A program made the position numbers and the translations under genes. Positions 1,222 through 32,740 of a stretch of DNA of 64,000 bases are shown in pieces (position 1 is the first letter of the stretch; the number at the start of each line of letters is the position of its first letter). The notes beneath the pieces were generated by a model. It ran no database searches. It was given only the letters and a program-made list of their open reading frames with translations, and was not told the DNA's origin. Source of the DNA: Mytilinidion resinicola (lineage: Eukaryota > Ascomycota > Dothideomycetes > Mytilinidiales > Mytilinidiaceae); NCBI RefSeq assembly GCF_010093595.1, contig NW_022985446.1:1544303-1608302 (forward strand). The letters run 5' to 3'.

Positions 1222-1359
1222 ATGAAGGCCGATACCATTCTCGCAGCGGTATTTGGCGCTTTGACTTTACTAGCAACGATAGCTGGAGTTCGCTATAAAA
1301 ACTCCATCGGCGGTTTAGTCTTGAAGCTTTTCAGATGTGGACGCCGCCGTCGAGGTTAG
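1222..1359 (+). CDS. Small single-pass membrane protein, family copy A
   Basis: ATG at 1222 opens a 45-residue frame: about 6 polar residues, a hydrophobic span (ILAAVFGALTLLATIAG), a basic RYKNSI step, a short second hydrophobic run, then Arg-rich CGRRRRG and a stop. The family template is clear from copies at 3308, 3890, 5466 and 32332. All have the hydrophobic span, the K/R-Y/F-K-x-S-I step and an Arg cluster. As in copies D and E, exon 1 would be exactly 133 nt, ending at 1354 before a GTTAGT donor. A decayed second exon seems to remain at about 1435-1500 (Tyr-Leu-Asp, then Pro-Ala, as in copies D and E, but with frame breaks and no clear acceptor). The product may therefore be just the 45-residue membrane anchor. 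No known Pfam domain was recognised; function is unknown. A membrane location is inferred from hydrophobicity and basic flanks. Confidence 0.5.
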   Translation: MKADTILAAVFGALTLLATIAGVRYKNSIGGLVLKLFRCGRRRRG

Positions 1360-2820
1360 TAGATTTTCTCTACGATGAACCACCGCGCCGCAGGTAAATT
1401 GTAGTGCATGTCTGGATTCATGATTTAAAAAGTGGCTACTTGGATATCCGATATCCTGCATTTCTTTGAACTGTTTGAAGTCTGGTACGGGAGATGGACG
1501 GACTTCAGGGTTCCAGGTCTCGATCACACCAAATCCCTTCTGCGTGTCCCCCGATGTCGGTCCCCCGATTTCGGTCCCCCGGTTTTGGTCACGTGATGCT
1601 GACGTAATGCATGTTTAGACCGCGAAAGCAACCAGGACATCGAGACCACCTCCCTTGGGCCTTCATCAAGCCAGAGCCAACATTCCACGGGCATTGAACT
1701 GCTTACTCTACCTCCTGTTCAGTATCCGATGTACCTCGATTGGCCGGTCCCTCCCTCCCCGTACGACGAGACTCGTCGCGAGCAGCATGAGTGGAGTACT
1801 GTGGCCTAGACAATCGCTTAGGGACTGGATAATCAGTTGGCCATAGCTGGATGAATGAAGACTGGTGTGCGTAGAGCTGAATGAGTGGTTTGGATACGAT
1901 GCTTGAGCGTTCGGCGGCCCGCGCTTTCGAGGATGTACTGAGGTATATGGTATTTTACTTGGACCTTTCGTTATATCTTTCATAGAACCTTCTTCTATAA
2001 TTTTCAACGCACTCCTCTGAAGTTGGAGGTGTTCACTATTGGTGTCCTCTACCGGGTTGTAAGATTTCGATCGCTGTCGATGCTAGATGGTGAGGCTCGC
2101 CTCACAGCTGTGTCCATAGCCTCCGACAGTATTTGGGACATCTCGAGTTCGTCGTCGCTCCTAACGATATGCTGTTGATGAGAAAGACCTTGCTTCTACC
2201 CTAGAGACAAGAAGCAAGCCGATTAGGAGTAGGAGCTGGTCGATGAAATTTAAGATCGGAAGAGAGTCCAACACACTTCTCGCATGTGAATGCTGGTAGA
2301 GACTTTCGTATGTTGTGTTAGCCGATGCTATAGTCTCACCTCTGTACTTATCTTGCGATGGACGAAGCTTTAAAGGTGGGGTTCTGGCAGATGTTTAGCC
2401 GCACCGGCCGTCTCCGGAATCCAGCCTCGCACGTGATCCATGTCGCGATTACGCTGTAAGATAGAACCGGATCTTCCAAGCCTAAAGTCAGGCGCTGTAG
2501 CTCTTGCCAACATATGGTAGTCTTGTTAAAATAGGATCTGTGTCATGGGGGTGAGGAGACCGCGTGCTACGGGTGCCCAGAAGCCACGCCCCCGGTAATT
2601 CAACGTCCCAAGTATCAAGCTACTTGGCGCACGGCATGCTTGTCATAGGGAATGTATGGGGCGAGAGTTCTGTCTTAGCACTAAATGATTGTGCGGAAAC
2701 GCGAGGACGCGAGTGAGCTGGTGTCGACACAGGCCCCCGAGTCGCCAGCCAAAGGCGGCACGATCTGCCAATCCGCCGAAACATAGCCTCACAATCCGCG
2801 CGCAAATTCCGCAGGGAGCC
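1360..2820. other. Intergenic region with remnant exon 2 of copy A
   Basis: The first 150 bases hold the decayed exon 2 of copy A. The rest shows only short unconvincing open frames (1655-1846, 1708-2007, 2620-2805). A run of three CCCCCGAT/GGTCCCC-type steps lies near 1548-1585. No RNA gene or transposon ends were recognised. Confidence 0.4.
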
Positions 2821-3297
2821 TCACAACGCTGAGGAGGCAGAAATTATGTAGGAGCCACCAATTTCTCGCCCGCCAACACCTCTATAATTACTCCAAGTTC
2901 CTCGAGCTTCTTTCCCATCTTGAAGCGCAGACTTTATCCATTTCTCCCAGTGCCCATCTTCGCTACTCAAAACTTCGTGACCGTGCGACAGCGCAATCCT
3001 TGCTAGAGCGGGACATGCCAACCAACCAATAGAATAACACTCCTGCAAGTGCTTAGCCTTGCGGCTTTCCTTCGCAGCCTTCTGGTCTATTCTTTTCTCG
3101 AGGTCTTTCTGTATGAGATTATTTTCAGCATGGATTTGAATATCTCTGACTGTCTGAAGAAACTGTCTTCCTTGGATGACCTCGACAGGACTAACATTTG
3201 GCGCAGAACCCGCTAGACTTCTAGCACAACTCTTTCGGCGATCATTGGACATCGTAGTCGAAAGCTGCGACCCAGACTTTACGTCTTCACCCGTCAA
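2821..3297 (-). CDS. Hypothetical protein, 158 residues, divergent from membrane-protein gene B
   Basis: The frame is open on the minus strand from ATG at 3297 to TGA at 2821. The middle (about residues 45-85) is rich in Glu, Lys, Gln and Arg, with heptad-like spacing that suggests a coiled coil. It is followed by a WLACPALARIAL segment and a Trp-rich HWEKWIKSALQDGKEARG segment, which look protein-like rather than random. No family was recognised. The start lies only 10 bases from the ATG of gene B on the other strand, so either the two share a very short divergent promoter or the true start is further in. The C-terminal 25 residues may read through an unspliced intron. This could still be a chance frame or a fragment of a larger lost gene. 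Confidence 0.3.
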   Translation of the reverse strand: MTGEDVKSGSQLSTTMSNDRRKSCARSLAGSAPNVSPVEVIQGRQFLQTVRDIQIHAENNLIQKDLEKRIDQKAAKESRKAKHLQECYSIGWLACPALARIALSHGHEVLSSEDGHWEKWIKSALQDGKEARGTWSNYRGVGGREIGGSYIISASSAL

Positions 3298-3307
3298 TCA
3301 AAGTAAA

Positions 3308-3702
3308 ATGGCGGATCAACACGCCTCCCATGCCCATCTCTCAGCCGAAGCCATCTTTGGTCTCATCTTCAGCATTCTCACCCTCACGGTTGCGATCGCG
3401 AGTATCCGGTACAAAGACTCTATATGCATGCTTTTCCTGAGGTGATGTCGCCGGACTCGTACTCAAAGAGGTTAGTCCTGCTGCGGACTCCTAACACTTT
3501 CTTCGATCTCAGCTAATGCGACGTAGGAAGTACTGATCTCGAAACCGGCAACGATAGCGCACAGAACAGAGCCGGAAGGAGCGACCTTGAGCTCCAGAGA
3601 AGCAGGTCGACGTTCTTAGACTGGCCTTTGTTGCCTTCGCCGTATGATGTTGGCCGGACGGAGAGGCTTGAGTGGGAGAGAGTGAGAAGCAGCGATGCCT
3701 GA
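3308..3702 (+). pseudogene. Small membrane protein family copy B, two exons, one in-frame TGA
   Basis: Exon 1 (3308-3470) encodes 17 polar residues, a membrane span (FGLIFSILTLTVAIASI), the RYKDSIC step and an Arg-rich end. A TGA at 3443-3445 interrupts it where copy C has TGG, as expected from a G-to-A change. The proposed intron runs 3471-3526: GTTAGT donor, CTAAC branch site at 3491, TAG acceptor. Exon 2 (3527-3702) keeps the frame. It encodes a Thr-Asp-Leu-Glu-Thr start, then a PSPYDVGRTERLEWER segment that matches PFELSQTEQLEWQRER of copy D, and ends at TGA 3700-3702. Conservation across the intron shows the two-exon model is real. The early TGA makes the present product a 45-residue anchor unless it is read through. 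Function is unknown. Confidence 0.55.
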
Positions 3703-3889
3703 TCCAAATTGAGGGTGGTAGATCTTGAACGGGAAGCTTCCTCGGGTCCGTTTAGATTTGAAGATGTGTTGTGTTGTCGTGCGATGATCTTTTGGAATGG
3801 AAAGTGGAAGTAGAATCAGAGAGTCAGGTGGTCAACGCCCAGCACAGCGTCAGGAGCTGAGGAACGCTAGCCATACATATTCTTAGTCA

Positions 3890-4087
3890 ATGCCCTTCTT
3901 TTTCATGCGAAAATTTAGTCTTCATCTGAACTTGCGCGAAACGCCGAAGCTCTCTACCGAAACGCTCTTCAATCTCATATTCGGTATTCTTGGTCTAATG
4001 ATGTTGATTGGGGGCCCTCAGTATAAGGACTGGATATTCTCACTCTTCTGGCGTTGGTGTCGCCAAAGTCGTGGCCAACAAGGCTAG
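3890..4087 (+). CDS. Small membrane protein family copy C (exon 1; second exon decayed)
   Basis: A 65-residue frame starts at ATG 3890; a second ATG lies at 3905. It holds the family core: a hydrophobic LFNLIFGILGLMMLIGG span, QYKDWIF in place of RYKDSIC, then an FWRWCRQSRGQQG basic tail. At the position of the conserved donor the sequence reads CAAG|GCTAGC, so the GT donor has become GC and translation stops at TAG 4085-4087. A decayed exon 2 can be followed at about 4138-4330 (Thr-Asp-Ile-Glu start, then Glu-Leu-Gln and Thr-Phe in the order seen in copy B), with several stops. The copy lies 190 bases downstream of copy B in the same orientation, so it is a tandem duplicate. Function is unknown. 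Confidence 0.45.
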   Translation: MPFFFMRKFSLHLNLRETPKLSTETLFNLIFGILGLMMLIGGPQYKDWIFSLFWRWCRQSRGQQG

Positions 4088-4330
4088 CCCCACAACTAGA
4101 TCCTACTTTAGCAGTGAGTATTTCTTAACACTAAGTAGCTTATACGGATATCGAAGCGAGGGAGGGGCGCGCTTAAGATAGACTAGGAGAGGAAATCTTT
4201 GAGCTCCAATAGACTTTCTCAGGGCCACGTTTCTGGACTGCTCTGTACCGTCCGTAGACTGCTCTGCAATATTCCCGCGGTATAAGCCCTGAGCTAGTAG
4301 GGCCCAGAGGGTTGGACAGAAGAACATGCA

Positions 4331-5465
4331 TGAATGATGTAGACAGAAGCTCGTGGACGGTCATAAACTGCATAGGGAGATTTTTCTATCTTGTTCCTAG
4401 ACTTCTAGGTTTTATTCGTATAACGACGTCTTAGGATACGGCGTGGAAAATGGGGCGGAGATTCGCGCTTTATGCCGCCCGCTTTAAAGAGATTTGGGAC
4501 TAGAGCAAATCGAGACTCCCAGATCATTTTCGCATGGTACGCCTTGAAAGCAAACTCGTTCCTATCTAGCTAAGAAACGGCAAGCATGATCGTCACCAAG
4601 ACAGGACGGTGAGGCAATCGATTCTAGGCAACTAAAACGTGCAGCAACCGGGAGCGAGATGCTAAGAGAATGAGCAGAGATTGGCCCAGCGGAAAATTAA
4701 GTAGCAAGTGTTCTTGTAGATGGCTTCCCAGACATTTGGGTGCAGGGATGGGTAGTAGCCTTACAACTCGAGCGACATGTTGAGGTGTTCTGCAGCGGGC
4801 CGAAAGAAAGCCGCGTCATGCCCGCCAGCCTCTAGCCTCTAGCACGGCGAATATCTAGCAAACGCTAGAAAGACGCGGTGGCCGACAAAGAAAATATTGA
4901 GAGCTGCGCAGTCGACGATCCGTAGCTATTACCCAGAAGTGATTCTTCCATTGGAGCCAAGCTGCTGTATAGAGTCCAGATGCGCGCGTAGGAGGAGTAC
5001 TTTTGCCTGGCAGTGAGCGCGAAGTTGCTCGTGCGAAGAGCCAGGAAATGGGCGCCGGTGGACGGGTGAACGTGCACTGCCCACTCAAGGAGTAATCCTA
5101 GAGATGGAGCGAACGTAATGTGACATGATATGGCCCGCGGGCGCGCCACGGCGGTATTGGGGCGGTGAGCTGGAGCAGCCAGGGATCTGTGCTCATCACC
5201 GTGCTCGCCGTACCCGCCAATGCCTTGCTGCCCTCCGCTTACGCGCTCGGTCATTGCAGCTCTCTCTCATCGTAACTGTAAAATCTTAAAAAGAAACGTC
5301 TGTCCTGATCGATTGGTATATAGTTTTAACCACGACCACTCATTCGACGAAGGCTTCTTCGACAAATATCCATCCGTGAAGTGTCTCCTACTCACTCCGC
5401 GACACATTCGATTGCCTCAACGAGGTAGAGAAGTTGATAGTCCAGGAACAGCATCTGAACCCGAC
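4331..5465. other. Intergenic region between membrane-protein copies C and D
   Basis: No supported gene is seen. The minus-strand frames at 4855-5088 and 4865-5254 overlap each other in different frames and show no recognisable motif. The last 250 bases are presumably the promoter and leader of copy D. Confidence 0.4.
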
Positions 5466-5853
5466 ATGGCTCATGAAGCAATGTTGGCAATCCTTTTTGG
5501 AGTTTCGACATTGGTCGTCACCGCAGCCGGTATAAAATTCAAACACTCGATCTGCTGCTGCTTCCTCGGCATGATTCGAAGAAGACACCGAACGCAAGGT
5601 CAGTCAATTCTTTCCTTCCTTCTTGCTTCCTGTTGATCTTCCAGAAGATGGCACTGCAAGATGGCGGGGATGCTGCGCCACACAAGGCTGACCAATCGCA
5701 GGAGATCGGGACATCGAAACTGCTCAGCGCCCACCCATAGAATACTTAGAGTACTTCCATCGACCTGCGGCAACTTCGCCGTTCGAGCTTAGTCAAACTG
5801 AGCAACTGGAATGGCAGCGGGAGAGAGATCGGGATAAGGGTGCGTGGCGATAG
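5466..5853 (+). CDS. Intact small membrane protein, family copy D, 94 residues, two exons
   Basis: Exon 1 is 5466-5598 (133 nt). The intron is 5599-5701: GTCAGT donor, GCTGAC branch site, CGCAG acceptor, 103 bp. Exon 2 is 5702-5853. The joined frame is open and gives 94 residues: MAHEA, a hydrophobic span at about residues 6-22, a KFKHSI step, a Cys-rich ICCCFLGMI run, the RRRHR cluster, then a soluble acidic tail. The tail begins GDRDIET, contains EYLEYFHRP and ends with PFELSQTEQLEWQRERDRD. Both exons and the intron phase match copy E, and exon 2 matches copy B. It lies 370 bases upstream of the HET gene at 6223 on the same strand. Inference: a membrane-anchored partner or regulator of the adjacent HET protein. 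No known domain was recognised. Confidence 0.7.
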
Positions 5854-6222
5854 GTGCTATGTCAGATAGAGGGTGGTACGTGTTGTGGGTATATGCGGAC
5901 TTTGATCTGGTGCCCGGTGAAGGCACTGATGTTTTAGCAGACACAAGGTCATTTTGACGTGTTACGGAAGCTTCAATGATAACGATGTGGACTGGAAGAT
6001 GATGAAGAGGAAATATCGGACAAGGCTGAGGTTGAAGTTGGGATGCTAAGCTTTTAGAGGCTAGGTCTGATTAGGTACTAGCGCAATATAGTAGCTTCGT
6101 TTCCCGAAGTCCCCATCCCCACCTCTGCTGCCTCAGCCTCTTTACCCTCCTACACTCAACATCAACAATCAGACCGCGAAACATGAGATAAGCAGGTCCC
6201 GGGCGTCATAGCCACTGCCAAC
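5854..6222 (+). promoter_or_regulatory. Promoter and leader of the first HET gene
   Basis: The last 170 bases, including a pyrimidine-rich CCTCTGCTGCCTCAGCCTC tract at about 6123-6141 and an AACATCAACAATCAGACC leader, are conserved at about 33288-33340 in the duplicated block. That conservation outside any coding frame, together with its position before the ATG, marks it as the likely core promoter and 5' leader. Confidence 0.45.
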
Positions 6223-7983
6223 ATGCTCGAAGTGTGTGAATGCAGATCTGCGAGACCTGAATCTCCACCAACGTCAACTCCCTACTCATACACGCCGCTA
6301 GATACTCCGGATCAATTTCGAACCATTCGGCTTTTACCTGCGGAATCGTTTGAAGCTCCCATTGAATGCCAGATTTGTATAGCAAATCTCTCCCATGGTT
6401 CTTCCTATGAAGCGCTTTCATATGCTTGGGGAAGTAGCTCTCGAGAGAATTCGATAAAATGCAACGGCCAAGATTTGTTCGTGACCCCTAATCTACTACG
6501 GGCGTTGAAGAGGCTACGCCCAATCTCTACACGCAGCATATCGAATCCGGGACCTCTTAATCTATGGGTAGATGCTATCTGCATTGACCAAGAGAATCGG
6601 AAGGAAAGAGCTCATCAAGTCGGCATCATGAAGAGGATCTATCAACTCGCCTCGAAAGTTGTTGTATACCTCGGAGAGGATGTCAACTTCAAGGACAGTG
6701 TCCCAAGTATACGAATGTTGTGGCTGCTCGACTCCTCCTGGTATACTAGGATGTGGACTCTGCAAGAATCTTTACTTAACCCGAACACGATCGTCAGGCA
6801 CGGCGAGACTATGCTCTCATGGGAAGATCTCGAGATCGGGTTCCGGTCATTACCTCCCAGTTTTCGTTACAACGCAGCGCAGCGGAATGCTATTCTCCGC
6901 GTCCAAACTACTAGAGAGTTGAGACTGCAGTTTCGAGAACTGCAGGGGTTTGTCCAGCATCCTCAGCCCACAGACCGCACAATCGCCGATCGTTTGTCCC
7001 GCATGCTATCTCTGTGCCAGTACTTTGAATGTGGAGATCCGAGAGACAAAGTCTTCGCCATCCTCGGCCTTGTCGATAACTTAGATTTCAACGCACTACC
7101 CGAGCTAAATCCGGACTACAACACTCCCGTTACGGAGATATACCGACGTTTCGCATTGTTCATTATCACCAGCCTGAAGGACCTGCGCATCCTTCACGAC
7201 GTGGGTATTAGCCGCCGTCTGGAAGGTCTGGCGACATGGGTACCAGATTGGAGTGTCACGAATCCTCAGGGCAAACTTTCTCGCAAGCTCTGTCGGCCTC
7301 ACTCTGATTCTTTTGATCTTCAGCAGCTCGGAATAGAAATACGAGGGGATGGATGGTTACTGATCTGTAAGGGTGCTTGTTTCGACACAATCGCTACCGT
7401 CGGCATGCCTCTTCGCGACATGACTGAATACATGAAGATGGCCAATGACTGGCGTAGTGCATTACCCCCGCACATGTCCCGTGTCTACAGCAACCACTCA
7501 GAAATCGACTTAAACAGCTCTAAAAACAGCTCTAAAGACAGACTCATCAATGAAGAAAACGTAGAATATGCGATCACCACCTTTTTGACAATGCTGACCG
7601 CCGGCAAATGGAATCGTCTTTCAGAAGTTGCCCGCGCACAGTGGTACGGGCGACTGGGATTCAGAGCAGAATGTTGGCCTGAGGATGCTAGAGACTTGAT
7701 CAACCTACAAGAACTTTCGGAGGAGATCGATGGCTGTGCTGGAAGAAGCGTCATCTTCACCAAGAGCGAGAAACAGGGACTTGCGCCACCACGTGCTCGA
7801 CCGGGGGATCTGCTAGTGTGGTTCGATGGCTCCGACTTCCCGTTTGTTCTTCGACCAGCGGAGAAACAAGACAGTAGCGATCAGGAGTATGAGATAATCG
7901 GTGACATCTATGTTTCTAACTTTGATGCCGCTGCGTTGATGACGGATAGCCTGGTACACACGACTACATTTATGATCCGATAA
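6223..7983 (+). CDS. HET-domain (heterokaryon incompatibility) protein, 586 residues
   Basis: One uninterrupted exon. The HET domain (PF06985) starts at about residue 62 with YEALSYAWG, continues with LWVDAICIDQEN (residues 114-125) and a Gln-Val...Ile-Tyr...Val-Val-Val-Tyr-Leu-Gly stretch (about 132-151), then WYTRMWTLQES (173-183). This is the order typical of HET-6/het-e type domains. The linker between YLG and the WTLQE motif is short compared with many family members. The remainder (about 200-586) is the usual poorly conserved HET-protein C-terminus, with no second domain recognised. HET proteins trigger cell death after fusion of unlike hyphae. The ATG is preceded by a leader that is conserved in the duplicated block, which supports the start. 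It follows membrane-protein copy D on the same strand. Frame and codon use look intact, so the gene is probably functional. Confidence 0.85.
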   Translation: MLEVCECRSARPESPPTSTPYSYTPLDTPDQFRTIRLLPAESFEAPIECQICIANLSHGSSYEALSYAWGSSSRENSIKCNGQDLFVTPNLLRALKRLRPISTRSISNPGPLNLWVDAICIDQENRKERAHQVGIMKRIYQLASKVVVYLGEDVNFKDSVPSIRMLWLLDSSWYTRMWTLQESLLNPNTIVRHGETMLSWEDLEIGFRSLPPSFRYNAAQRNAILRVQTTRELRLQFRELQGFVQHPQPTDRTIADRLSRMLSLCQYFECGDPRDKVFAILGLVDNLDFNALPELNPDYNTPVTEIYRRFALFIITSLKDLRILHDVGISRRLEGLATWVPDWSVTNPQGKLSRKLCRPHSDSFDLQQLGIEIRGDGWLLICKGACFDTIATVGMPLRDMTEYMKMANDWRSALPPHMSRVYSNHSEIDLNSSKNSSKDRLINEENVEYAITTFLTMLTAGKWNRLSEVARAQWYGRLGFRAECWPEDARDLINLQELSEEIDGCAGRSVIFTKSEKQGLAPPRARPGDLLVWFDGSDFPFVLRPAEKQDSSDQEYEIIGDIYVSNFDAAALMTDSLVHTTTFMIR

Positions 7984-8256
7984 CGCGGAAGCCTGTCGGC
8001 GGAACACCTCGTGCCGCGTATCTGAGGACTGATAAAAGATGAATGGGAAGCACTTTCAGAAGCCGAGCATCTCCCACCAAGATCAATCTAATGCGCTTAA
8101 CACCAGCACGATTTCAATATATCCATTACAACATTGGGTAATAATCTTGAGCACATGAATATCTCACTGCTCGGGCCCCAACCTTACTCGCTCGACGCCA
8201 CTGTGAGGAGTACCCCGGCTAGTAGGGTTGGGTGTATGTCTAACATTGAGGGAGCT
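7984..8256. other. 3' flank of the HET gene with a dispersed repeat
   Basis: No gene. At about 8173-8222 there is a copy of a dispersed motif (CTCGACGCCACTGTGAGGAG followed by a GGCTAG step), also present at 57.6-57.98 kb and weakly at 35.84 kb. Confidence 0.4.
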
Positions 8257-8441
8257 GGCGCTCTCTGCCTTAGCGCAGAGAGCAGATGCTCGGGCATCCG
8301 CGGGCTCTCTGCATTAGTGCAAAGAGCAGACGCTCGGGCATCCGCGGGCTCTCTGCATTAGTGCAGAGAGCAGACACTCGGGCCCCCACAGCCGCCCCGT
8401 TCGCTATCTACCTTCGTGCAGAGAGCAGACGCCCCGGGCGG
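8257..8441. repeat. Tandem array of 44-bp hairpin-forming units
   Basis: Three units start at 8261, 8305 and 8349, so the period is 44, and a partial fourth lies near 8413. Each unit holds CTCTCTGCATTAGTGCAGAG, whose arms CTCTCTGCA and TGCAGAGAG pair around a 4-base loop, followed by CAGACGCTCGGGCATCCGC. In unit 2 one arm carries a single mismatch (CAAAGAG). It is not a CRISPR array: this is a fungus, and there are no unique spacers. It lies at the border between the HET locus and the AT-rich transposon block. Confidence 0.75.
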
Positions 8442-9345
8442 CATATCTAGAAGCAGCGCATGGTCTATAGAGGCGGCCGCTTCTCGTTTAGTAATTAGTG
8501 GGTCCTTCCCAGCGATTACTAACGCTTAAGCGATGGAACTACGAATTGCTGATATTATTACCTTAAACGCCCGACTTTGGAGGATATGCGGATTTGCCTT
8601 CTTTTTTCCTACGTTACTGATATCCATGTTCACTACACCGCGCTTCTGCCTTGCATTTTGCCTTGCATTCTGCTTGCATTCCCCTTGCAGCTAATAGCTG
8701 ATTTACTTTCTTATATAATTGAATACATTATTTCCGGCTTCTAGGCTCTCGCTTTTAGAGGTCTTTGTTATTTTTTATTGGATAATTCTATTTTAGGTAA
8801 GCTTATCCGGACGGAGAGTATCTAAACTAAGCGTGAAACTTCTCTAGTAGAAACTCCTGCTTTACTTCCTTCTAATAAGTACTAAAATTTAGTAGGCTTT
8901 TATTGGCCTATATTTAGAGGATCCTACCTAGAAAGTATTAAGAATTACTATTATATATACTATAGCTCTATATTCTATAATAGTAAGGTTGCAACTATAT
9001 ATAGTAGAATAGTTATTTAAAGAGCTTAATTATAATAAGAAAGATATAGCTGCTTATATATTAGAAGGCTATAATATTTATAGTTTACTAATAGCAACAG
9101 TAGATATATATACTCTAAGACTTACTCTACTACTAAAAGTTTATAGAATTAGTTTCCTATAGCTCTTATAGCTGCGTTTAAAGCTGCTGGTATAATACTA
9201 ATAGTAGTAAAGAAACCTAGGTAAAAAAAGCAAAACTTAAGTATAAAGATAGGGTTTTAACGCTTATATATAATAAGGGGGTTATAAGGCTAGTAAAAGC
9301 CCCCTCTAAATCTAAGAACTAGAGATAGGTATAAAAAAGGGTTAA
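8442..9345. other. AT-rich, RIP-mutated relic sequence
   Basis: From about 8740 the sequence is strongly AT-rich and TA-rich with no open frame. This is the signature of RIP on an old repeat. No family could be assigned. Confidence 0.4.
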
Positions 9346-9350
9346 AAGGC

Positions 9351-9722
9351 TGTCACGATAGCGCTACACGCGAGAGGTCGAGGGCTTAAAGAGGAGCGTT
9401 GATTAGGTGCTATGTACAATGCTACGTGGAGAATCAAGACGTTGTGTAAGGAACAGGAAGACGGGAGACGGGCCACCGGATATAAGGGCGTGGCCGAGCG
9501 CGTGGCGTACGGCCTCTATGCCGTTTCGGCGCGTGGCACGCGTGTACGCGAGGGTAGGTGGCTGGAGCGGGACAGGATAGGAAGCGGAAGCGAGACGGGA
9601 GCGGAGCAGGGCAGGCAGGGCAGGAGGCCGGCCAACGGTAGTAGGCCGGTGCAGATTGCTGGAGTTGTAGCAATCTGCGGCAGAATTTCGGTAGGTAGGG
9701 TGTCGCGGTCGATACCGTGACA
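9351..9722 (-). repeat. Left LTR (transcriptional 3' LTR) of the chromovirus
   Basis: 372 bp, from TGTCACG to CGTGACA. It is GC-rich and almost free of RIP, in contrast to the interior next to it. Confidence 0.85.
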
Positions 9723-12700
9723 GTACCCCCCTCCTAAACCCAAGTCTCTTGGCGAGTAGAAGGCGCTGTTCGTGATGTGTACGGCTATTTATCGGGAGTA
9801 GGGCCGTGAATTAAATCTTGATTAAGGTTTTAGGGTCCAGCAGGACGGGGCTTATTGGACGCAGGATCGTGAGCTTCGGGGTGGCGGCGATAATAATCAG
9901 CCGCAGCAGTAGTGTCCTTTAGGTTGTTAACGGGTTGCTAGAACAGGTTGTTGTATCCAGTCCATCGGACTAAGTACTTGTATTGCTTTTAGCGCCGGTT
10001 TAGGCGCATGCCTTTAATACGGTTAATATACTATTCAGTCTCTCCTTTAACTTAAATAGGTTCAGGTGGGGGCGACTCCTGGCCAGGCAGGTAGTTAGCT
10101 TGCGGAGCGGCAGGACGGAGTAATAAGATATAGAAGACAGGATATATCTTTATAGATTTAGGTAGGCCTAGTTAATAGGCGTACGGAGAAACAATCTATA
10201 TAATTGGGAACTTCCCTAGGTTCTTCTAATTAAGCTTCTTAGCGGGTTGATTTATACGGATATTCCGTGTATTTAACCAGACTTTGTCACCTACTTTATA
10301 GGCCGGTGCGCCTATATATTTTCGGTTGGCGTATTCTTCTTGCATTGCTTAGGCCTAAGTTATCTCTTTGCGGATAAACTGCTTAATATTTAATATCTTA
10401 TTAACTATTTAATTAGCCTTAAGTGCTTGCAGTGCTTAATAGGTAGGGCGCGGAGTTCCTAATAGCGGTTTAAAGCCTATTCTCGGGTGTTGTCCTAAGA
10501 TAGCAATAAACAGTGTTACTGTTGTCGATTTAGATCAGGTGTTGTTTACCTTAAACTAAGCGGACGGCAGCTAGGTAACCTAGTTATCTTGCTCGTAGTT
10601 TATATAGGCGCGGAGGACTTATTCCAGCATTAAATTAGCCTTTTCTATTTAGCTATTAGTTTCCGGGTAGAAGGCCGATAATAATTAGGCTTTAATACGT
10701 AGTTGCTTATAGAGTTTATCCTAAAACGCGGAGATAAACTATATTCCTTAATCGGATACGCATATATTAGGCAATCCGTGATATACCTAAATATATTAGT
10801 AGAATAGGTTAGCTATAGCCTTAGCCGTAATTATTCTATAGGGAATTATATATTAGTACTTGCTTAGGCGGTTTACTATAACTATAATATTAGTGCAGCC
10901 TTCGGATTTAGGTAGTTTAATAATAAAGTCGACAGAAATATCTTGCTAGTAATACTGCAGGACGGGCAGGGGTTTTAGGAAGCTATTATACTTCTTTTTT
11001 AAAGCCTTTATACAGCAACAGGTGTAATAGTATACTATAAATCGGCGGATTATTTTAAATATATACGGCTAGTAGTATTTTCTTTAAAGGATTTCTAGAG
11101 TCTTTCTATATCTAGGGTGGCTGCTAACAGGGGAATTATACATGTAATAAAGCAGTTTAATCTTTAGTTTATTATTATTAGGAATTGCTATTCGGTTGCG
11201 GAAGTAGAGCTTGCTATTTCGCTTTTTGCATTTACTTAGGGTAATCTTCTTAGAGCGGTATACTCCGGAGCATAATATTTCTAGGACTTCCTGGATAAAC
11301 TTATTATTTAGGTATTTATCCTTAATAATCTCCTAAATTATTCGGTTAGTTTCTATTAAATTTAACTGCGTAAACAGGTTAGAACAGAGCAGTATCTAAT
11401 TTCGGGCTGCTTAAGCTTCTTTTTACGCAAGCGCATTTTATATATAACGCGTTAAGGCGTTAGGCTTTTTACTATACTTACTAGGTTAGTAGGTAATTAA
11501 AAAGTTAAATTAGGACAGGTATTCGGACTAATAAGCCTGTTAGTAGCTTAACTGCTTTATAGTTATAAAGTACTGCAGGTTTTTATAGTTGCTAAGAACC
11601 TAAATTAGGAATACTGCGCCTTTTAGTTTAGGCCGCTACTGTTTAAAGCATTAGATAATTGCTAGGAGTTCCTTATTATAGATCTTATAGTTGTATTTAG
11701 CAGAACTTAATTATTTTAAGAAGTAGGCTATAGGTTAAAGTATTCCTTATTTATCTATTTATAAGAGCACTTTAGTATTTATATAGTTAGACAAATCGGC
11801 CTTAATAATAATTAGCAGTTTAGGGTCGAAATAACAGAGGATTAGGGCGGTGGTAAATACTGTCTTAAGTTATTTAAATACCGCACGGCAGGACTTATTA
11901 AACCGGAACGGAATGTCCTTCTTTATAAGTGTAATTAGGGGAGCGGCCAGGCCAGAGAAATCGTTAATAAATTGTTGGTAGAAGTTTGCAAATCTAATAA
12001 AGGCTTATACGTCCTTAATATTATAGGGGACTTTCTAGTTATAGATATTCTTAATCTTATTCGGGTCTATACTAATTCCGCCGGTTAATATTATATACCC
12101 TAGGTAGGTAACCTTATCCTAATAGAATTTGCACTTATTAATATCTAGTTATAGGCCGGCGGCTTCTATTACTTCCAGGACTAGCTTTACGTAATACTAG
12201 TAGTTTTCGAAGTTTTCGCTATATATTAGAATATTGTTAATATATACAGTATAAAATACGTCTAGGTATAGGCGGAGCACGTTGTTTATATAGTGTTAGA
12301 ATATGCTAGGAGCGTTAGCTAATCTAAATAGCATTACTAGGTATTTAAACAGGCCGTATCGCGTCCGGAAAGCAGTTAGCTATTTATCTCCTTTTGCGAT
12401 TTATAAGCAATTAAATACGGAGATAATATCGAGCTTTATATAGTATTTCGCCTTGCTTAATTATACTAGGGTCTCCTAAATTAAGGGGATTAGGTATTAG
12501 TTCTTAACAGTTATAGTATTTAGCGCGCGGTAGTTAATATAGAATTATAGGCCTTCTCCGGGCTTTTTAACAAAAATAACCGGAGAGGCGACAGGTGATA
12601 AACTAGCACGGATAAATCCTTTCGCGAGGTTGTTGTTAAGGTACTTCCTTAGCACCTTTAATTTATTTTATAACATTCCGTATAACGGGCTAAATCCGTG

Positions 12701-20590: not shown

Positions 20591-20599
20591 GAATTTAAT

Positions 20600-23973: not shown

Positions 23974-24241
23974 TATTACGGCTTAAACGGTAAAGCTTAC
24001 TGCACAGCGTAACACGTAATATTAGGACCCGGCGAGAGGCCTTATTATAAGGGCCTATGTAAGCCTTAGCAGGAGTATACCTACTAACCGCCGCCCTGCC
24101 TTCTTATAGCTTCTTAAGCTACGTTTTATTATTTAACCCGCCTACCTGCTGTATATTATAGAACACGTAGTAAATTTAGTTATTACTTCTACCTACCTGC
24201 CCGAGCTAGCTAGGGCAATTCTACCGCCCGAGACCGTAATA
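23974..24241 (+). repeat. Left LTR, RIP-mutated
   Basis: 268 bp, TATTACGG to CCGTAATA; the un-mutated partner reads TGTCACGG to CCGTGACA. Confidence 0.85.
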
Positions 24242-27200
24242 TTATATAGCTCCTTACCCACCTAGCTATCTACCTGCACCGCCGACCTAATATCCTACCT
24301 TTTCCCCCTAGTTCTACCGGACAGCAAATCCGCGTTCGCCGCCTATATTACTAACCACGTATATAAATAGTACGAGTACTACCGCTAAATATATAAATAT
24401 ATTAATACCGCCCAGGAAAACCTTACTAAAAACCACTAAGCCGTACTCTGTATATAAGCCCTGGAATTAGAAATTAAGGAATATAAATAATAAAGCAACT
24501 AACTAAAGGTATAATTATAAGCTGTCCGTAAATACTAAAAGAAAGAAATAAAAGAGCTTATAAATAAACTAGCTTTAGCCCTTACTAAGAGATAGAAAGC
24601 AATTAATATAGCTATACCTACTGTCCGCACCGCCCTATAAACCCTAATACTGCAAGTACTAACTAAAAAAAATACAGCTAATATAGTATAAACGCCTCCG
24701 TCTACTTCTAATATATCTACTACCCCTACCCGGCTTTCTAAGAAATAACTTAACCCTAATAAGTTTATAGGTAACTAAAAGAACCTCTGCCGCTTCCTTT
24801 TTTAAATCTATAAGAAAATAACTGTTAACTAAAACCGCTTTCCTAACCCCTAAAGCTTAATATCCTATATAAATAGTTATTTAAGTGGAAACCTATACGC
24901 CTAAGTTCTGCTGTATATTATAAAAGGAAACTGTTAACTACCCGATTTTAAAGCTATTTTAGAACTTTTAAAATAAGTATATAAAAACCCTAACTAAGTC
25001 CGTAACTCCTGCACTAAACTATTCCGCCTCCGCTAAAATAATAAAGAATTTAGTATTTTTCTTACTAAATTCTAACGCCTAGCTTTAGAAGGAAAGCTTT
25101 TTAAAAAAGCTTTACTAACCCTTTTAGAAAAAGCTATTAACTATAAACTAAAAGGAATACTACTCTACTATAAACCCCCTAGTAGAAAATACTATATATT
25201 TATAAAGTTCCTTTAAAACCTAAATAACCGCCGCAAATAATATAAAGTATCTACTACTGCAACCCCGAAAATATACGCTAATATAAATTAAACCTATTAG
25301 GAAACACCCGTTTCTATAGGAATATAAACTGCTATACCCTAGTTATTACTAAGAGCGTCCGGCGCTATAAAAATTATAGAAGTCTCCGGAGACCTAATAA
25401 ATCTTTTAAAAGGTCGCTTAACTTAATATAAAAAGAAGGAATATTACTATTATAGATCTAAGAAATACTTTATCTATAACTGCCCTTAGCCTAATAAACG
25501 CTCTATCCGCTCCTGCTCTATTTATAAAAACGCGTTTTTCTAGAGCCCCTTACCGCCCTCTACTAAATATAGAACCTAAATACTACTAAAACCCGCTTCT
25601 CCCCTATTTTCTACTTTAATAAAAGGATTAAGCCTAATATAGGTTATAGCCAGGCTTATATACTGCGCACTATATAAGTATCCGCTGCTGCTATCTAAGG
25701 GATAACTATTAAAAAGGAACAGGTTATAAGAGCTAACCTGTTAATTATACCTGCACGTTTAGAATACTAGGGCCAGAGTATTCTAGTATATAGTATAATT
25801 AATAGTAGCTGTAAAGGGAAAGTACTAGTTAATAAAGACTAGGTAAAGTATTACTATATTCTAATAATTCCGCTTAAGTACCCTTTTTACCTAGAACTAG
25901 CCGATAGAGGTAATTCCGAAGCGGGTAAAGTAACCTATACTGTTTAGGTTTAATTATAAATAAATAAATATTTAGAGACCGTTTAAATAGGAGTAACTAA
26001 ACTAAGTTATTACCTAATTATTCTAGGAATCCTGTGGCTACGCCTGTATAATCCTATACTAGACTAGTCCTGTAATATACTATAGTTTATAAGCTAGTAC
26101 TATTATAAATACTATAATATACTGTAAAAAGCAACGCGTGTATAAGGAATTGCTAATATTCTAAAAAAAAACCGCCTAGAGTACCTGCTGCCTGCACTAA
26201 AAAACCTAGAAAAGAAGAATATAGCACCCGTTTCCTTACACGTATATAGCGCCTACCTATAAAGAGGATATAAACTCTTTTCTATATTACTAGATAATAT
26301 TAACTATATTCTATCTAAAAAAAAGGGCTTTAACCTAAACCGCCTGCCTAAAAAACTATAAAAGTTTACTAATATTTTTTCGCCTAAAAATGCTAACTAC
26401 CTGCTACTGCACCGCCTATATAACTATAAAATTAAGTTAGAAAAAGGAAAAACACCCTTTTTTAAACCCTTATACCTAATATTCTATAATAAGCTAATAG
26501 CTCTAAAAGAATAGGTAGCAGATAATCTAAAAAAAGGATTTATCCGCCCTAGCTCTTCGCCTACTGCGTTACCTGTATTATTTATAAAAAAGCCTAGAAA
26601 AGGCCTCCGCTTCTATATTAACTACCGAGCGCTAAATACTATAATAGTTAAGAACCGCTACCTGCTACTATTAATAAAGAAAACCTTAAGTAACCTAAAA
26701 AGGATAAAGTACTTTATAAAGATTAATATTATATCTGCCTTTAATAACCTATATATAAAAAAGGGTTAAAAATAGCTTACTATATTCCAAACCCGACTAG
26801 AACTGTTTAAAACCTTAGTAATACTATTTAGGCTTACTAGAGCCCCTGTAACGTTCTAATAATTTATAAATAATACTCTGCAAGAGCATTTTAATATTTT
26901 CTATACTGCTTACCTAGATAATATTCTAATTTATAGCCGGAACCGAACTAAACACCTAGAGTATATCTATACTATACTAAAACTACTATAAAAAGCAGGA
27001 CTCTATATAAAAATTAAGAAATATAAGTTTTTTACTAAAAAAACAATATTTCTAGGCATTATTATAGGAGCTAACGGCCTATAAATAGACCTAGAGAAAA
27101 TTAAAGCCGTAATAAACTAGAAGATACTAACTTGCCTAACTAATATATAAGCTTTTATAGGATTTAGAAACTTCTACCGCCGATTTATTAAAGACTTCTT

Positions 27201-29130
27201 AAAAATTATTACTCCGCTAGTACGCCTAATAAAAAAGGGTATTACTTTTATATAGAATACTACCTGTTAGAAAGCTTTTACTAAATTAAAAAAAGCCTTT
27301 ACCTCTGCACCTATTTTAGTACTATTTAACTAGAATAAGCCTATTATTATAAAAACGGATATATCTAATTATATTTTAGCTAGCGTCTTATTATAGTACA
27401 AAGACGACAGAATCCTGCGCCCTGTTGTATTTTTCTTAAAAAAGCACTTAGTTATAGAATATAACTATAAGATATATAATAAGGAACTGCTTACTATTAT
27501 TTAATACTTTAAAGAATAGAAACTAGAGCTTAAAAGCGCTGCCTTACCTATTAAAGTTATTACTAACTACTATAATCTAAAGTACTTTATAATAATAAAA
27601 CTACTAAACCGCCGCCAGGCCTGCTGGTCTAAATTCCTGTCCTATTTTAACTTTAAAATCACGTATTAACCCGGAAAACTTAAGGTAAAGCCTAATTCTC
27701 TAACTAGAAGGTTAGAGAACCTGCCTAAAAAAGGGGATAAATATCTCTGCTACTAGAGCCAGATAATTCTAAAGAGATTAAACTTTAAAAATAAAATAGA
27801 AAAGAAAACTATAAGGAAAATAACCTTTAAAAATAAAGCTAAAATAATAGCTCTAGCACCTATAAAAACCTAGTAAAAAGGCTTATTACTAACTTTTCTA
27901 GACAACACCCTATAAGATAAATAAAAGACTAAGGGAAATATAGAACTACCCTCTATAATTGCCGCCCTGCTAAGAATAGTATATAAAAAAGACCCTATTC
28001 TGCTATTAGTTCTAAAAGCCTTAAAAAAAGGACACTGCTATTATATAAAGCTTATATTAGCTAAATACTAAAAAAAAGGTAGATACCTATACTATTAGAA
28101 CTGCCTATATATACCTAACTATAATAAACTAAAGGTAGAACTTCTGCGCATATACTATAGGAACGCTATTACTAGCTACCCTAGAAAATCTAAAATATAT
28201 AGCCTAATAGCCTGCAGTTACTACTAGCCCGGAATACTACTTTATATAGACTATTAGGTTAGGAACTGCTAAATATATAAAAGAACTACTTTATTATAAA
28301 AAGCCTATTAGGGTATTCTAAAGCCGCTGCCTATTTCTAAAAAAGCCTAGCGTAATATATTAATAGATTTTATTACGCACCTGCTATATAGCGGAAAGTA
28401 TAATATAATCCTTATTATAGTAGACCGCCTAACTAAAATAAAATACTTTCTTACCTATAAAGGGACCTGCAACGCGGAAGATATTATAAAACTTTTCCTA
28501 AAAAATATTTAGAAACTATACAGCCTGCCTGCCTCTATTATATTTAACTAAAGGCCCTAGTTTATAGCTAAATTCTAGAGATACCTAACTAGCCGCCTAA
28601 GAATTAACTGCCTACTATTAACTATATACTACCTCGAAACTAATAGCTAGACTAAGAGAGCTAATACTATCCTAGAATAGTACTTACGGGCATATATATC
28701 CTATTTATAGGATAACTAGGCTAAATAGCTGCTTTTAGCTAAACTGTTAATTAATACTATAAATTCTAAAAGCACTTATATCTCCCCCTTTTTTATAAAC
28801 TACGGCTTCTACCTATATCTAGGTTTTAAGCCGGTTAAACTGTTAACCCGCCCGCCTGCTAGAAATACTAAGCGCTTTGCTAAGTATATAGAAGAGATTC
28901 TGGAATATCTAAAGTCTAAACTTACTGCCTTCTATACCTAATATAAGGATAATATAAACTATAACTGTTGCCCTGCTTATAACTATTAAGTTAACAACTT
29001 AGTATAGTTAAATGCTAAGAATATTAAAACCCTCCGCCCCTAGAAGAAGCTAGATTGGAAGAATCTTAGACCGTTCCGCATAGAGAAGGTCGTCAGCCCT
29101 TACGTATACTGCCTAACCTTACCGGAGAGC
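24242..29130 (+). pseudogene. gag-pol of the gypsy element, RIP-destroyed
   Basis: Plus-strand remnants in the usual order. A gag zinc knuckle remnant lies at about 25440-25495 (C-terminal Asn-Cys-Pro). Reverse transcriptase lies at about 26500-27060, with Tyr-Arg-Ala-Leu-Asn and a degenerate Tyr-Leu-Asp-Asn catalytic box followed by Ile-Leu-Ile-Tyr-Ser. RNase H starts at about 27300. Integrase at about 28330-28700 has Asp-Phe-Ile-Thr and Ile-Ile-Val-Asp-Arg-Leu-Thr-Lys segments. Many TAG/TAA stops replace Gln and Trp codons, which is the RIP pattern. Confidence 0.75.
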
Positions 29131-29430
29131 ATGCGCAACCACAACATCTTCCACGTTAGTTTACTAAGACCTGCCGCGAATGATCCGCTGCCCGGCCAGC
29201 GTCAAGAACCACCGCCGCCAGTTGAAGTCGAAGGCTTGGAGGAGTGGGAAGTCGAGGAAGTTGTCGACTCTCGATGGGAGCGTCGCGGTTGTGGCCGCCC
29301 CCGCCTGAAGTACACGGTGAAGTGGACCGGATACAACGAAGTCACAGAAGAGCCCGCTGACTATCTGGAACATGCCGAGGAAGCTATCCGGTCGTTCCAC
29401 CGCCGTTACCCTGAAAAGCCCGGTCCTTAG
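29131..29430 (+). CDS. Un-mutated C-terminal part of gypsy pol with chromodomain
   Basis: A 99-residue open frame. [12 protein letters not shown] is the conserved end of gypsy integrases. A Pro/Glu-rich linker follows, then a chromodomain (about residues 40-90: [19 protein letters not shown], a [16 protein letters not shown] helix). The ATG is internal to pol, so this is not an independent gene. Its normal base composition contrasts with the RIP-mutated upstream part. It ends at TAG 29428-29430, 35 bases before the right LTR, with a GGAGGGGAGTAC polypurine tract at about 29453-29464. Confidence 0.75.
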
Positions 29431-29465
29431 GCCTCAACGGAGTTCGGCCGTAAGGAGGGGAGTAC

Positions 29466-29733
29466 TGTCACGGCTTGAACGGTGAAGCTTGCTGCACAGC
29501 GTAACACGTGATGTTAGGACCCGGCGAGAGGCCTTGTTGCAAGGGCCTATGCGAGCCTTGGCAGGAGTATACCTGCCGACCGCCGCCCTGCCTCCTTGTA
29601 GCTCCTTGAGCTACGTCTTGTTATTCAACCCGCCTGCCTGCCGTGCATTATAGAACACGTAGTGAATTCAGTTATTACTTCTACCTACCTGCCCGAGCTA
29701 GCTAGGGCAATCCTGCCGCCCGAGACCGTGACA
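29466..29733 (+). repeat. Right LTR, un-mutated
   Basis: 268 bp, TGTCACGG to CCGTGACA. It differs from the left LTR only by RIP-type transitions. Confidence 0.85.
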
Positions 29734-30142
29734 CAACCTGGCCGGCACCGCGCTTATCTAGCAGCTTATTGGCCATATCTTGTACAGCGCTTAACCGCGG
29801 TGCAAATCCTCTTGAATCCAGGTCAATTATATGTTGAATAATAACTGATTCCTCTAGCTTTGTAAGCTTCTTTGAATTGGGCTCGCAATCGCGTCGGGAG
29901 GTTGTTCCGGCGCGTCGTCGTTGAAGCGTGCTTCTAGGGACTTCGAAGGTTGTTGCAGCTTGTCGCTCGCTTTGAATTTGGTTCTTATTGATTGCTGAGA
30001 TAGCTAGGCATATTAGGCCTTCGCTTTGGACTAGTTGCGCGTTGTGTTGTTGAGGCATGATAGTTAAAAGTCAACAGAGCGCGTTTTGGTGATGGGGTGG
30101 CCCGCTCGCTTGGGTGGCCCGCTCGCTTGTGGAGTACGTTAC
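29734..30142 (-). pseudogene. Truncated pogo-type transposon: terminal repeat plus transposase N-terminus
   Basis: On the minus strand the element starts near 30142 with the inverse of GAGTACGTTAC and a doubled GGCCCGCTCGCTTG terminal repeat. The transposase begins at ATG 30058: a Gln-rich start, then an ISAINKNQIQSERQAA helix-turn-helix segment (psq/CENP-B type), then LDSRGFAPRLSAVQDMANKL. At 29733 it runs into the LTR, and the frame continues for about ten meaningless residues. The DDE catalytic part is missing. There is no RIP here. It matches the decayed N-terminus at 15640-15970. Confidence 0.7.
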
Positions 30143-32331
30143 CTTACTTAAAATATAACACGCCGGTCACTATGTTCACACGCTGCGACTTAGCGCCAAT
30201 ACTCGAGTTGCAGCACTACAACCTAGGATCAACAACTTATATGCCAGTAACGTATCAGGATAGCATGCTAATACAGGAGGAAGTAACAGGTAGTGCAACA
30301 GCAGTGCTGCAGCACGGTATTAGTACTGCATTAAGTAATAGGATGTCACCAGCAACGTATCAAGAGAGCTGCCACGTTAAGCTCCCGGGGGTGGCCCCCC
30401 TTCCTTCTCCTAGTATATAAACAACGAGCTAGACACCTATAGAAATCAGAGTTCAGAGCCAATTTCAACCTGAGTCCAATGGTGTACCTCAGCTCTTCCA
30501 TCGTTCGATTTGGGAACAAACCCAACACCCTGGAGATCTGTCCGAACCTTATTACTTCTGTCTTCCCCTAGGCACATGCCGTAGCAACTGCTTCACTCAT
30601 AACCTGAGCCCGCTCTTCTCGTAAATGCATTACTAAATCACTGACCACCTGGCAAGAGCGTGCTCAACATCCTGCCAAGTCTGCTAATCACTGCCATACT
30701 CTTAGGAAAGTTACTTGCGCAAGCTCAGCAAAGAGAGAACTACAAAAGAAGGATATAAGATAGGAATCTGAGTGCGTCACTTAACGAAGCATGCTGGCAA
30801 TATTAAAGAGGTTGTGTGCTGCTTCCATCAGTCTCTGATGAAGTCACGTGCTGCTGGTCCTTGGCGCTAGATAGCAGTCTCTGGTCGCCTGTTTGGACGA
30901 GGGGCCAAACCAAGGAGCGAGAATCCGCCGCTAAAGCCACAATCCATACCCGAGCTTACTCCGCAGGAACACCTCACGACGGTGCGGCGTCGTCGCAGGG
31001 CAGCAGAGCAGAGTCGCAGAAAGCTCCACCTCTTCTTTGCTTTGTAGAAATGGTTCGCCAGGAAAGTGGTATTACTGAGCTACTTGCTACGCGCAATTTT
31101 TCGGCCAACGGATGCAAATGACACTGTGCTGCGCGGTCAATCAATATAACTAGACTTAATTTGGTGTCAGGTGGAACTAAATGCTAAAGGTTCTACTCTG
31201 AGACTTACCTTATGGAGGGTATTTTGAATTAAGAGGCTGTCTTCTCAAACAACATTTAAGAACGATGTTGTGATTTACGGCACATAACGTCTTAGCATAC
31301 ACAGTGTATTGAAGCCTTCGTTTTGGGTAGTTAGGGATACTTCAGCTACGATGTTTAAAGAGGTGGTTTCTATTGGTCAAGTGCGCATTTAACCGCAGTA
31401 TTGGGAACACTAATCTTTATGAAAGCGCATGCAAAACCGTCCGGAGTGTCCGCCTAAAATCACTGCTTTTCATAGTCCCAGGTTAGTCAGATAAGCTGCA
31501 GTCGCTCAAAGCGGGGCTGACCAATGGTAAGCTTGCGTGTTGGAAGACGCGGCTCTACAAAAACATGTAAGCCATCGCGGTGTGCTAATACACGAGAATT
31601 AATGATTGGAAAATCTTTCTCGTACCTGCAAGCCCGAGTGTTGATGCATGCATGATTAAGGCAAGCATACGCGCATCCCACGTGATGTTACGAACAACCG
31701 CGAAAGGCTCTGTACAGAACAGAGGGCCTCGGGGGCAAGGTGCAGGAACCAAGTTACCAAGACCCATGACAGGACACACGTGACCAGGGGTCACGTGGGT
31801 GATCTTACTGATCTCGCTTGGCAAGGACAGAGTAGAGAGATCAGGACCAAATTGTATGAAGGGCGGAAAGCTATAAGAGTCTGGAGGATTCCCTATTGTC
31901 TTTCTCTCCTTCGTACTCAATCTTGTTTATGTATCTAGCATACTGAACTTAACGGCAATCTTACGACTCAAGTTTTTTGACTATCTTTACACACTTCCAA
32001 TACTACTGAAGCCAGCTCCCTTCCAACGTTCTACTTATTCACACTCGAACCTCGCGTCACGTGCTAGTCCGTGACGAAGTATACCAGCAGGTGAGTAGAA
32101 ACCTAACCGTCCGGACTATCCCCTCGAAGACCCTTGGTGTGATCTTTAGGTGAATGGGCAGTTCATAACACGTGGTTCCTCGGCGACCTCAGCTTATCCG
32201 CCCCCACTAACATCCGCCTGCATTGTAGTAGAGGCGCTGAGGGAAATAAGACGGCCGCGACTCTTGCTTCACGACTCTCTAGAGGCTAAAACCGTGCGAT
32301 ATTAGCCGCATAGACAATACGAGATTCAACT
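30143..32331. other. Intergenic region upstream of membrane-protein copy E
   Basis: No supported gene. Frames at 30097-30420, 30816-31121 and 31585-31920 show no motifs. The core GCTGACCAATGGTAAGC repeat seen at 669-690 recurs at 31515-31532. A TATAAGAG box and pyrimidine-rich stretch near 31870-31920, after TGTTACGAAC at 31686, could be a solo LTR, but no matching end was found. Confidence 0.4.
31777..31797. promoter_or_regulatory. Perfect palindrome with two CACGTG boxes
   Basis: CACGTGACC and its inverse GGTCACGTG are separated by AGG. CACGTG is the core site of bHLH factors (Cbf1/Pho4/NUC-1 class). It lies 535 bases upstream of membrane-protein copy E. Regulatory use is inference only. 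Confidence 0.3.
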
Positions 32332-32740
32332 ATGTCTAAGGAAGAGATGTTGGCTGTTGTCTTCGGGGTCTTGACCTTGCTCGTTACCGGCGCAGGGATA
32401 AGGTTCAAGCACTCAATATGCGGCTGCTTTATCGCCATCGTTCGGAGAAGGCATTGAATTCGGGGTAAGCAGTCCTAATTTTCTATTCCATGACACATCC
32501 ATTCAATTTCTGTCCCCAGGTCTGTTCTGCAAGATGAAAGATAATGTATCAAGGGCTGCACAAGACTGACCAATCGCAGGCGACCGGGACCTTGAAGCGT
32601 CACGGCCCCCAAGCAATTTGGTACGCACCGAGTACCTGGACTACTTTCATCGCCCTGCCATACCGTCGCCGTTTGATCTCAGTCGCACAGAACAGCTAGA
32701 ATAGCAGCAGGAAAGAGACCGAGAGGAGCCAACGTCATGA
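32332..32740 (+). pseudogene. Small membrane protein family copy E, two premature stops
   Basis: Exon 1 (32332-32464) is 133 nt, the same as in copies A and D. It has MSKEEM, a hydrophobic AVVFGVLTLLVTGAGI span, an RFKHSICGCF step and RRRH. A TGA at 32455-32457 replaces the Arg (CGA) codon of copy D. The intron 32465-32579 has a GTAAGC donor and a GACTGACCAATCGCAG end. Exon 2 (32580-32740) keeps the frame (GDRDLE, EYLDYFHRPA, PFDLSRTEQLE), then has TAG at 32702-32704 where copy D has TGG, and ends at TGA 32738-32740. Both lesions are single transitions. The similarity to copy D covers both exons and the intron 3' end. The first stop would leave a 41-residue anchor. Confidence 0.7.

Follow-up and report, generated by a model that had tools for sequence, protein, structure and literature searches.

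Tandemly arrayed single-pass membrane mini-proteins of an apparently unnamed family in Mytilinidion resinicola and Lophium, with probably incidental HET neighbours

Five copies of a small two-exon gene lie in a 64,000-nucleotide stretch of the genome of Mytilinidion resinicola (Dothideomycetes, Mytilinidiales; the window, positions 1544303-1608302 of contig C10, in an assembly of 47.1 Mb and 44 contigs), and we found that they belong to an apparently unnamed, conserved orphan family of single-pass membrane mini-proteins present in two genera of related bark fungi, and that its paralogues are under purifying selection. Taken as a whole, our reading of the family, in which we place slightly more trust than doubt, is that the mini-proteins act as membrane tethers or adaptors, evolve through tandem birth and death, and stand passively beside HET genes. 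A preliminary description of the window had proposed undescribed two-exon, single-pass membrane mini-proteins with a functional link to HET genes. The family itself is upheld by the lack of any Pfam or PDB match or of a description in the literature searched, by relatives of the same layout in Lophium and by purifying selection. The functional HET link fails for the family: HET genes were found next to two of the 15 copies, through one duplication, the copies on contigs C2 and C27 lie among ordinary genes, and no HET gene is repeated with the array unit.

Fifteen copies of a two-exon mini-gene

Combining exon and profile searches gave 15 copies in M. resinicola, lettered A-K and M-O plus a single C2 copy: 12 on C10, all on the + strand, two on C27 and one on C2 (Table 1). 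This number is a lower bound, because the searches score the best candidates only. Ten copies lie beyond the window, namely seven upstream on C10 (13-25 kb before the window), the two on C27 and the one on C2. Successive genome searches with exon-1 queries returned 9, 11, 12 and 12 places, and those with exon-2 queries 4, 8 and 9, the last set including C2:1815713, a weak match (expectation value, E, 0.126; 0.31 with the profile) that we took as chance. This place apart, the exon-2 queries matched family members only among the proteins of the genome. Copy C was detected by a local profile alone, and exon 1 of copies N and O by a local C27 profile alone.

Independent exon-1 and exon-2 profiles were built from four Lophium proteins and the relative P0004, with no window sequence, and applied in a six-frame scan of 114 kb of C10. 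At E<=0.1 the exon-1 profile gave 12 matches (E 1e-24 to 5e-4) and the exon-2 profile 10 (E 1e-24 to 2e-4), all on the + strand; 20 first-order Markov randomisations of the same 114 kb gave no match at E<=0.01 (best 0.019 for exon 1 and 0.7 for exon 2). All five window copies of the preliminary description were recovered at their + strand positions by exon 1 (E 1e-24 to 5e-4), and four of them (A, B, D and E) also by exon 2.

Table 1. Positions of the mini-gene copies and of the HET genes next to copies D and E
Feature	Position in window	Position on contig	Strand	Remarks
Copy A, exon 1	1222..1354	C10:1545524	+	133 nucleotides; hydrophobic span and basic cluster; Lophium orthologue P0003
Copy A, exon 2	1619..1809		+	tail with YLDWPVPPSPYDETRREQHEW; preceded by a 264-nucleotide phase-1 intron
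Copy B, exon 1	3308..3470	C10:1547610	+	in-frame TGA at codon 46
Copy B, exon 2	3527..3702		+	FLDWPLLPSPYDVGRTERLEWERVR
Copy C, relic	3890..4087	C10:1548192	+	exon 1 only; E 5e-4 with the independent profile
Copy D, exon 1	5466..5598	C10:1549768	+	133 nucleotides; Lophium orthologue P0001
Copy D, exon 2	5702..5853		+	preceded by a 103-nucleotide phase-1 intron
HET1	6223..7983		+	HET-domain gene (PF06985, 86.2 bits); begins 369 bp after D
Copy E, exon 1	32332..32464	C10:1576634	+	133 nucleotides; in-frame TGA at codon 42
Copy E, exon 2	32580..32740		+	in-frame TAG inside the motif
HET1 5'-end relic	33290..33467		+	matches 6122-6305, about 28 codons into HET1; 72% over 188 columns
HET2	33530..35763		+	HET gene of another subtype; begins 789 bp after E; PF06985, 105.3 bits on 34018-35763
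Copy K		C10:1519243	+	upstream copy
Copy F		C10:1520894	+	upstream copy
Copy G		C10:1523066	+	upstream copy
Copy H		C10:1524853	+	upstream copy
Copy J		C10:1527413	+	upstream copy
Copy M		C10:1529085	+	upstream copy
Copy I		C10:1530804	+	upstream copy
Copy N		C27:96426
Copy O		C27:98523
C2 copy		C2:2520547

Open two-exon models could be written for 10 of the 15 copies (A, D, F, H, I, J, M, C2, N and O), and in every one a phase-1 GT..AG intron of 44-264 nucleotides directly follows the basic cluster. The intron placement given in the preliminary description and its 133-nucleotide exon 1 in A, D and E were both seen in the gene models; M and C2 have an exon 1 of the same length. The uniform intron phase is partly a matter of construction, because the junctions were chosen by eye, that of the C2 copy being taken from the public model P0005. 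Independent support for the junctions comes from copy I, for which the public model (P0002) equals the model typed before P0002 was seen, and from the Lophium proteins, whose alignments with A, D, H and C2 run across the junctions. For H, the public model BDZ99DRAFT_463556 (P0008) leaves the intron unspliced and so ends in a different C-terminus. Five copies remain that are either broken or in doubt, namely B, C, E, G and K: a TGA and a decayed exon 2 mark K, no in-phase acceptor was found by eye in G, and in C, again by eye, the expected GT donor is missing and exon 2 has decayed, with none intact. Copies A and D are open from ATG to stop after intron removal; since B carries a TGA, E both a TGA and a TAG, and C is a relic, A and D are the sole intact copies within the window.

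Relatives in Lophium and purifying selection

A seven-row profile was searched against 5.8 billion proteins by a word-based, capped method that scored 1834 candidates and may miss distant relatives. Eight proteins reached E<=10 among these candidates: three from M. resinicola, four from Lophium mytilinum and one other; the D query alone returned a single protein, P0001. The family thus appears restricted to a narrow lineage, so far Mytilinidiales only plus P0004. In Pfam no family scored above the cut-off (best E 0.15, in one of seven members; none for D at E<=1), no PDB chain matched at E<=10, and no description of the family was found in the literature searched.

The four Lophium proteins pair with individual copies, at identities of 82% (A-P0003), 79% (D-P0001), 67% (H-P0007) and 61% (C2-P0006), as against 37% for A compared with its paralogue D. 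A tree built from 15 sequences recovered the D pair (100/99), the H pair (100/99) and the C2 pair (95/97), with A and its partner at an unresolved fork. At least these copies must therefore have separated before the two genera did. Purifying selection was further seen between paralogues: with the NG86 method, the N-O pair gave 0.24 nonsynonymous (dN) and 0.97 synonymous (dS) substitutions per site, a ratio of 0.24, and five of 10 pairs had a finite dS with ratios of about 0.15-0.27, most of them rough at dS >1.6, the other five, including D-E, being saturated. D and E differ at 0.19, 0.16 and 0.59 mismatches per site at codon positions 1, 2 and 3, and because the mismatches concentrate at position 3, E was under constraint for long and broke late. 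Repeat-induced point mutation (RIP) was considered as the source of the stops in E and found no support, the comparison of D with E giving 30 C>T/G>A changes and 33 reverse transitions.

Predicted layout of the mini-proteins

The family encodes proteins of 93-135 residues. In each of the 10 open copies one 19-residue hydrophobic span stands out, with a mean hydropathy of 1.95-2.73; it is preceded by 0-1 K/R, and the 25 residues after it contain 4-10 K/R. The same span and charge pattern, of signal-anchor type, were found in all five other sequences (the four Lophium proteins and P0004). By the positive-inside rule, the tail would lie in the cytosol. The tail form with TEQLEW, named as typical in the preliminary description, is present in D and E and nearly so in B; what all 10 open copies share instead is S-P-x(10)-W at fixed spacing; the form SP[YF][DE] occurs in eight of the 10. 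In an AlphaFold2 model of the Lophium A orthologue, helices cover residues 2-24, 26-40 and 92-106, the predicted local distance difference test score (pLDDT) is below 50 for residues 47-74, and the last helix spans PYDETRREQHEW.

HET genes downstream of copies D and E

The two adjacencies that gave rise to the HET proposal are real, HET1 being the next HET gene found downstream of D and HET2 that of E, on the same strand. They are not independent, however, because both stem from one old duplicated block, in which 5466-5834, 5997-6093 and 6122-6305 match 32332-32724, 32891-32993 and 33290-33467 (65-74%). At E, a HET gene of a different subtype comes after this remnant of the HET1 5' end, and a tblastn comparison of the HET1 protein with HET2 gave no significant match (best E 0.46). 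HET2 is split into two frames near 34020, by a frameshift or an unrecognised intron.

D and E are the two of 15 copies for which a HET gene was found next downstream; none was found there for the other 13. If there are 364 HET genes among about 15,700 genes, assumed to be spaced at one per 3 kb, chance alone would make the next gene a HET gene on the same strand for about 0.17 of the 15 copies. The genome holds at least 151 HET matches (364 first-look candidates, 150 scored); HET1 is not among the matches listed, so no place in the genome can be declared free of HET genes on their basis. Four HET genes are known in the last 226 kb of C10, a higher density than the genome average. For Neurospora, PMC10684091 counts 42 of 69 HET genes as clustered with a lineage-specific gene at max-gap 5 and 14 of 69 at max-gap 0, which suggests that a HET neighbourhood of lineage-specific genes is background.

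The closest relative of HET1 was the Lophium HET protein P0009 (72% over 67% of HET1; 7992 candidates scored), the second-best match reaching 30% over 58%. P0009 is assigned to a Lophium contig of 1,613,766 bases, as are the orthologues of A, D and H, and the C2 orthologue to one of 2,251,244 bases. Ordinary synteny would equally keep P0009 and the D orthologue on one contig. The public model of P0009 has 398 residues against 586 for HET1 and may be truncated, though the D orthologue is complete. In the L. mytilinum HET protein P0075 the N-terminus is hydrophobic and leads into an Arg-rich stretch, which by eye recalls the mini-protein layout.

HET linkage as a family-wide rule was rejected on the two-in-15 count and the single duplication, and the HET adjacency of the array is probably incidental. 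Homologues scattered without HET linkage, which the preliminary description had set against its own proposal, come close to what we observed, the exception being the apparent presence of the HET1 relative and the D orthologue on one Lophium contig. A HET partnership is therefore unsupported for the family and conceivable for the D-HET1 pair alone, which stays a candidate on account of that shared contig.

Genomic surroundings of the copies

An all-against-all comparison of 614 open reading frames (ORFs) of at least 35 residues from C10:1517000-1552500 revealed no companion gene repeated per array unit; apart from two local tandem repeats, nothing but mini-gene exons, seen in frames of both strands, recurs between units. 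Upstream of the copies no shared promoter emerged, the commonest 8-mer occurring in three of 14 copies (C left out) and reaching 3-7 of 14 in 20 random sets, and no cross-copy BLAST match was found within 800 nucleotides at E<=1e-4. A transposon origin was rejected in view of these unshared flanks and the coding constraint.

A neighbour scan of the C2, C27 and upstream-array flanks covered 19 ORFs or proteins, among many more short ORFs. The C2 copy is flanked by vWA, serine carboxypeptidase and SBDS genes; the C27 copies by an F-box gene, an MFS transporter and an inositol-pentakisphosphate 2-kinase; and the upstream C10 array by a SUZ/R3H-type gene on one side and WSC, 2EXR, LysM and GH18 genes on the other. 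A LysM protein and then GH18 (chitinase-family) ORFs lie at C10:1537290-1541851, between two parts of the C10 array. Measured to contig ends, which are not necessarily telomeres, the C10 array lies about 98-157 kb from the end, the C27 copies 96-99 kb from the start and the C2 copy about 546 kb from the end. Within the window, AT-rich blocks at 8001-30000 and 44001-52000 have a GC fraction of 0.27-0.46 and RIP-like indices (TpA/ApT 1.44-1.95; second index 0.26-0.89). By eye, 29.0-29.4 kb resembles the chromodomain end of a gypsy-type element, and an ORF fragment at 45869-46441, in which 45954-46383 reads as N, resembles TPR/kinesin-light-chain repeats.

Discussion

Adaptor-like action through the C-terminal helical motif would be the likeliest mechanism of the mini-proteins. 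The N-terminal span may serve as a reverse signal-anchor, with N out and C in, that the basic cluster keeps in place, a topology predicted from the positive-inside rule. The disordered tail would offer a putative cytosolic partner a short peptide at its C-terminus, helical and of the form S-P-x(10)-W, often WPxxPSPY[DE]x[ST]xxExxEW; by presenting this peptide the protein would tether or adapt its partner to the membrane. Tandem birth and death of copies would drive the evolution of the family within a repeat-rich region that also carries HET genes, and its HET linkage would be passive. The animal transmembrane adaptor LAT has a short outer N-terminus, one span and a disordered cytosolic tail with short motifs. 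The mini-proteins resemble it in predicted layout alone, with an outer N-terminus, one span and a disordered tail, but do not share a LAT-like conserved Tyr and juxtamembrane Cys: the motif Tyr is replaced by Phe in D, E and P0004 and by Asn in I, and exon 1 of the C2 protein has no Cys.

Several observations weigh against the tether or adaptor reading with passive HET adjacency. Of the 10 copies with open models only four, A, M, N and O, have the fuller motif [FY]L[DN]WP..PSP[YF][DE], and the AlphaFold2 model is poor overall (mean pLDDT 61.1, predicted template modelling score 0.23). With five of the 15 copies broken or in doubt, many members seem dispensable, and the D-HET1 linkage seems kept, because P0009 and the A, D and H orthologues apparently share a Lophium contig.

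The fast turnover that these five copies point to, together with the layout of a hydrophobic helix, a break and a cationic helix, would suit a membrane-active effector that permeabilises or modulates membranes, as a defence peptide or pump-regulating micropeptide with a regulatory tail. We consider this unlikely, as a tail motif kept at fixed spacing in all 10 open copies is unneeded for membrane damage alone, and one-to-one orthologues have been retained. That the copies are not genes, and represent a repeated non-coding or transposon-derived element, is suggested by the AT-rich, RIP-like blocks nearby and by a public protein set that returned three of the 10 open copies; it is extremely improbable in the face of the codon-position bias, the orthologous proteins in another genus, the single intron position and the unshared upstream flanks.

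Copy D could instead form a two-gene cell-death module with HET1, which begins 369 bp after it on the same strand, and act there as the membrane-anchored sensor, guardee or trigger; the other copies would be HET-less relatives. The best match of HET1 (72%) and the orthologues of A, D and H apparently share one Lophium contig, and two-gene modules of fungal cell death are known (examples in PMC12881547). For 13 of 15 copies, nevertheless, no HET gene was found next downstream, E-HET2 arose from one duplication with D-HET1 and has a HET gene of a different subtype, other genes surround the copies on C2 and C27, and the Lophium HET model, 398 residues against 586, may be truncated, though the D orthologue is complete; with at least 151 HET matches in the genome, chance adjacency is plausible, and we regard the module as rather improbable. 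A wider version, in which the array would contribute to the fungal immune repertoire a diversified set of membrane-anchored peptides for recognition or adaptor functions, the D-HET1 module having been kept since the genus split and the other copies serving other cell-death proteins in trans through S-P-x(10)-W, seems to us more doubtful again.

Among the closest known parallels are the lineage-specific genes that cluster with HET-domain genes in Neurospora, which, as presented in PMC10684091, are likewise taxon-restricted and domain-less, with paralogues adjacent and a HET-holding region. The mini-proteins differ from that case in forming one coherent family with its own motif, in the position of the C10 array about 98-157 kb from a contig end that is not necessarily a telomere, and in their predicted span, the main text of PMC10684091 never using the word 'transmembrane'. 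The fungal two-gene cell-death modules HELLP/PNT1, het-S/nwd2 and PLP-1/SEC-9, as listed in PMC12881547, and het-B with its PII-like partner, as given in PMC10890737, are alike in that a gene adjoins a cell-death or HET gene, with linkage apparently kept once in our case (D-HET1). In contrast to these modules, 13 of 15 mini-protein copies have no such gene found next downstream, and the mini-proteins contain no known effector domain.

Apparent HET linkage can stem from a single duplication, which counsels caution over guilt-by-neighbourhood claims in HET-rich genomes. If the D-HET1 pair were functional, it would provide a membrane-anchored HET partner of a kind not found in the literature searched. 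The public protein set, in which three of the 10 open copies were returned and one had its intron read through, exposes an annotation gap. To the small fungal membrane proteins missed by annotation, the mini-proteins add an orphan family that is coherent, bears a clear signature and has been preserved by selection in two genera.

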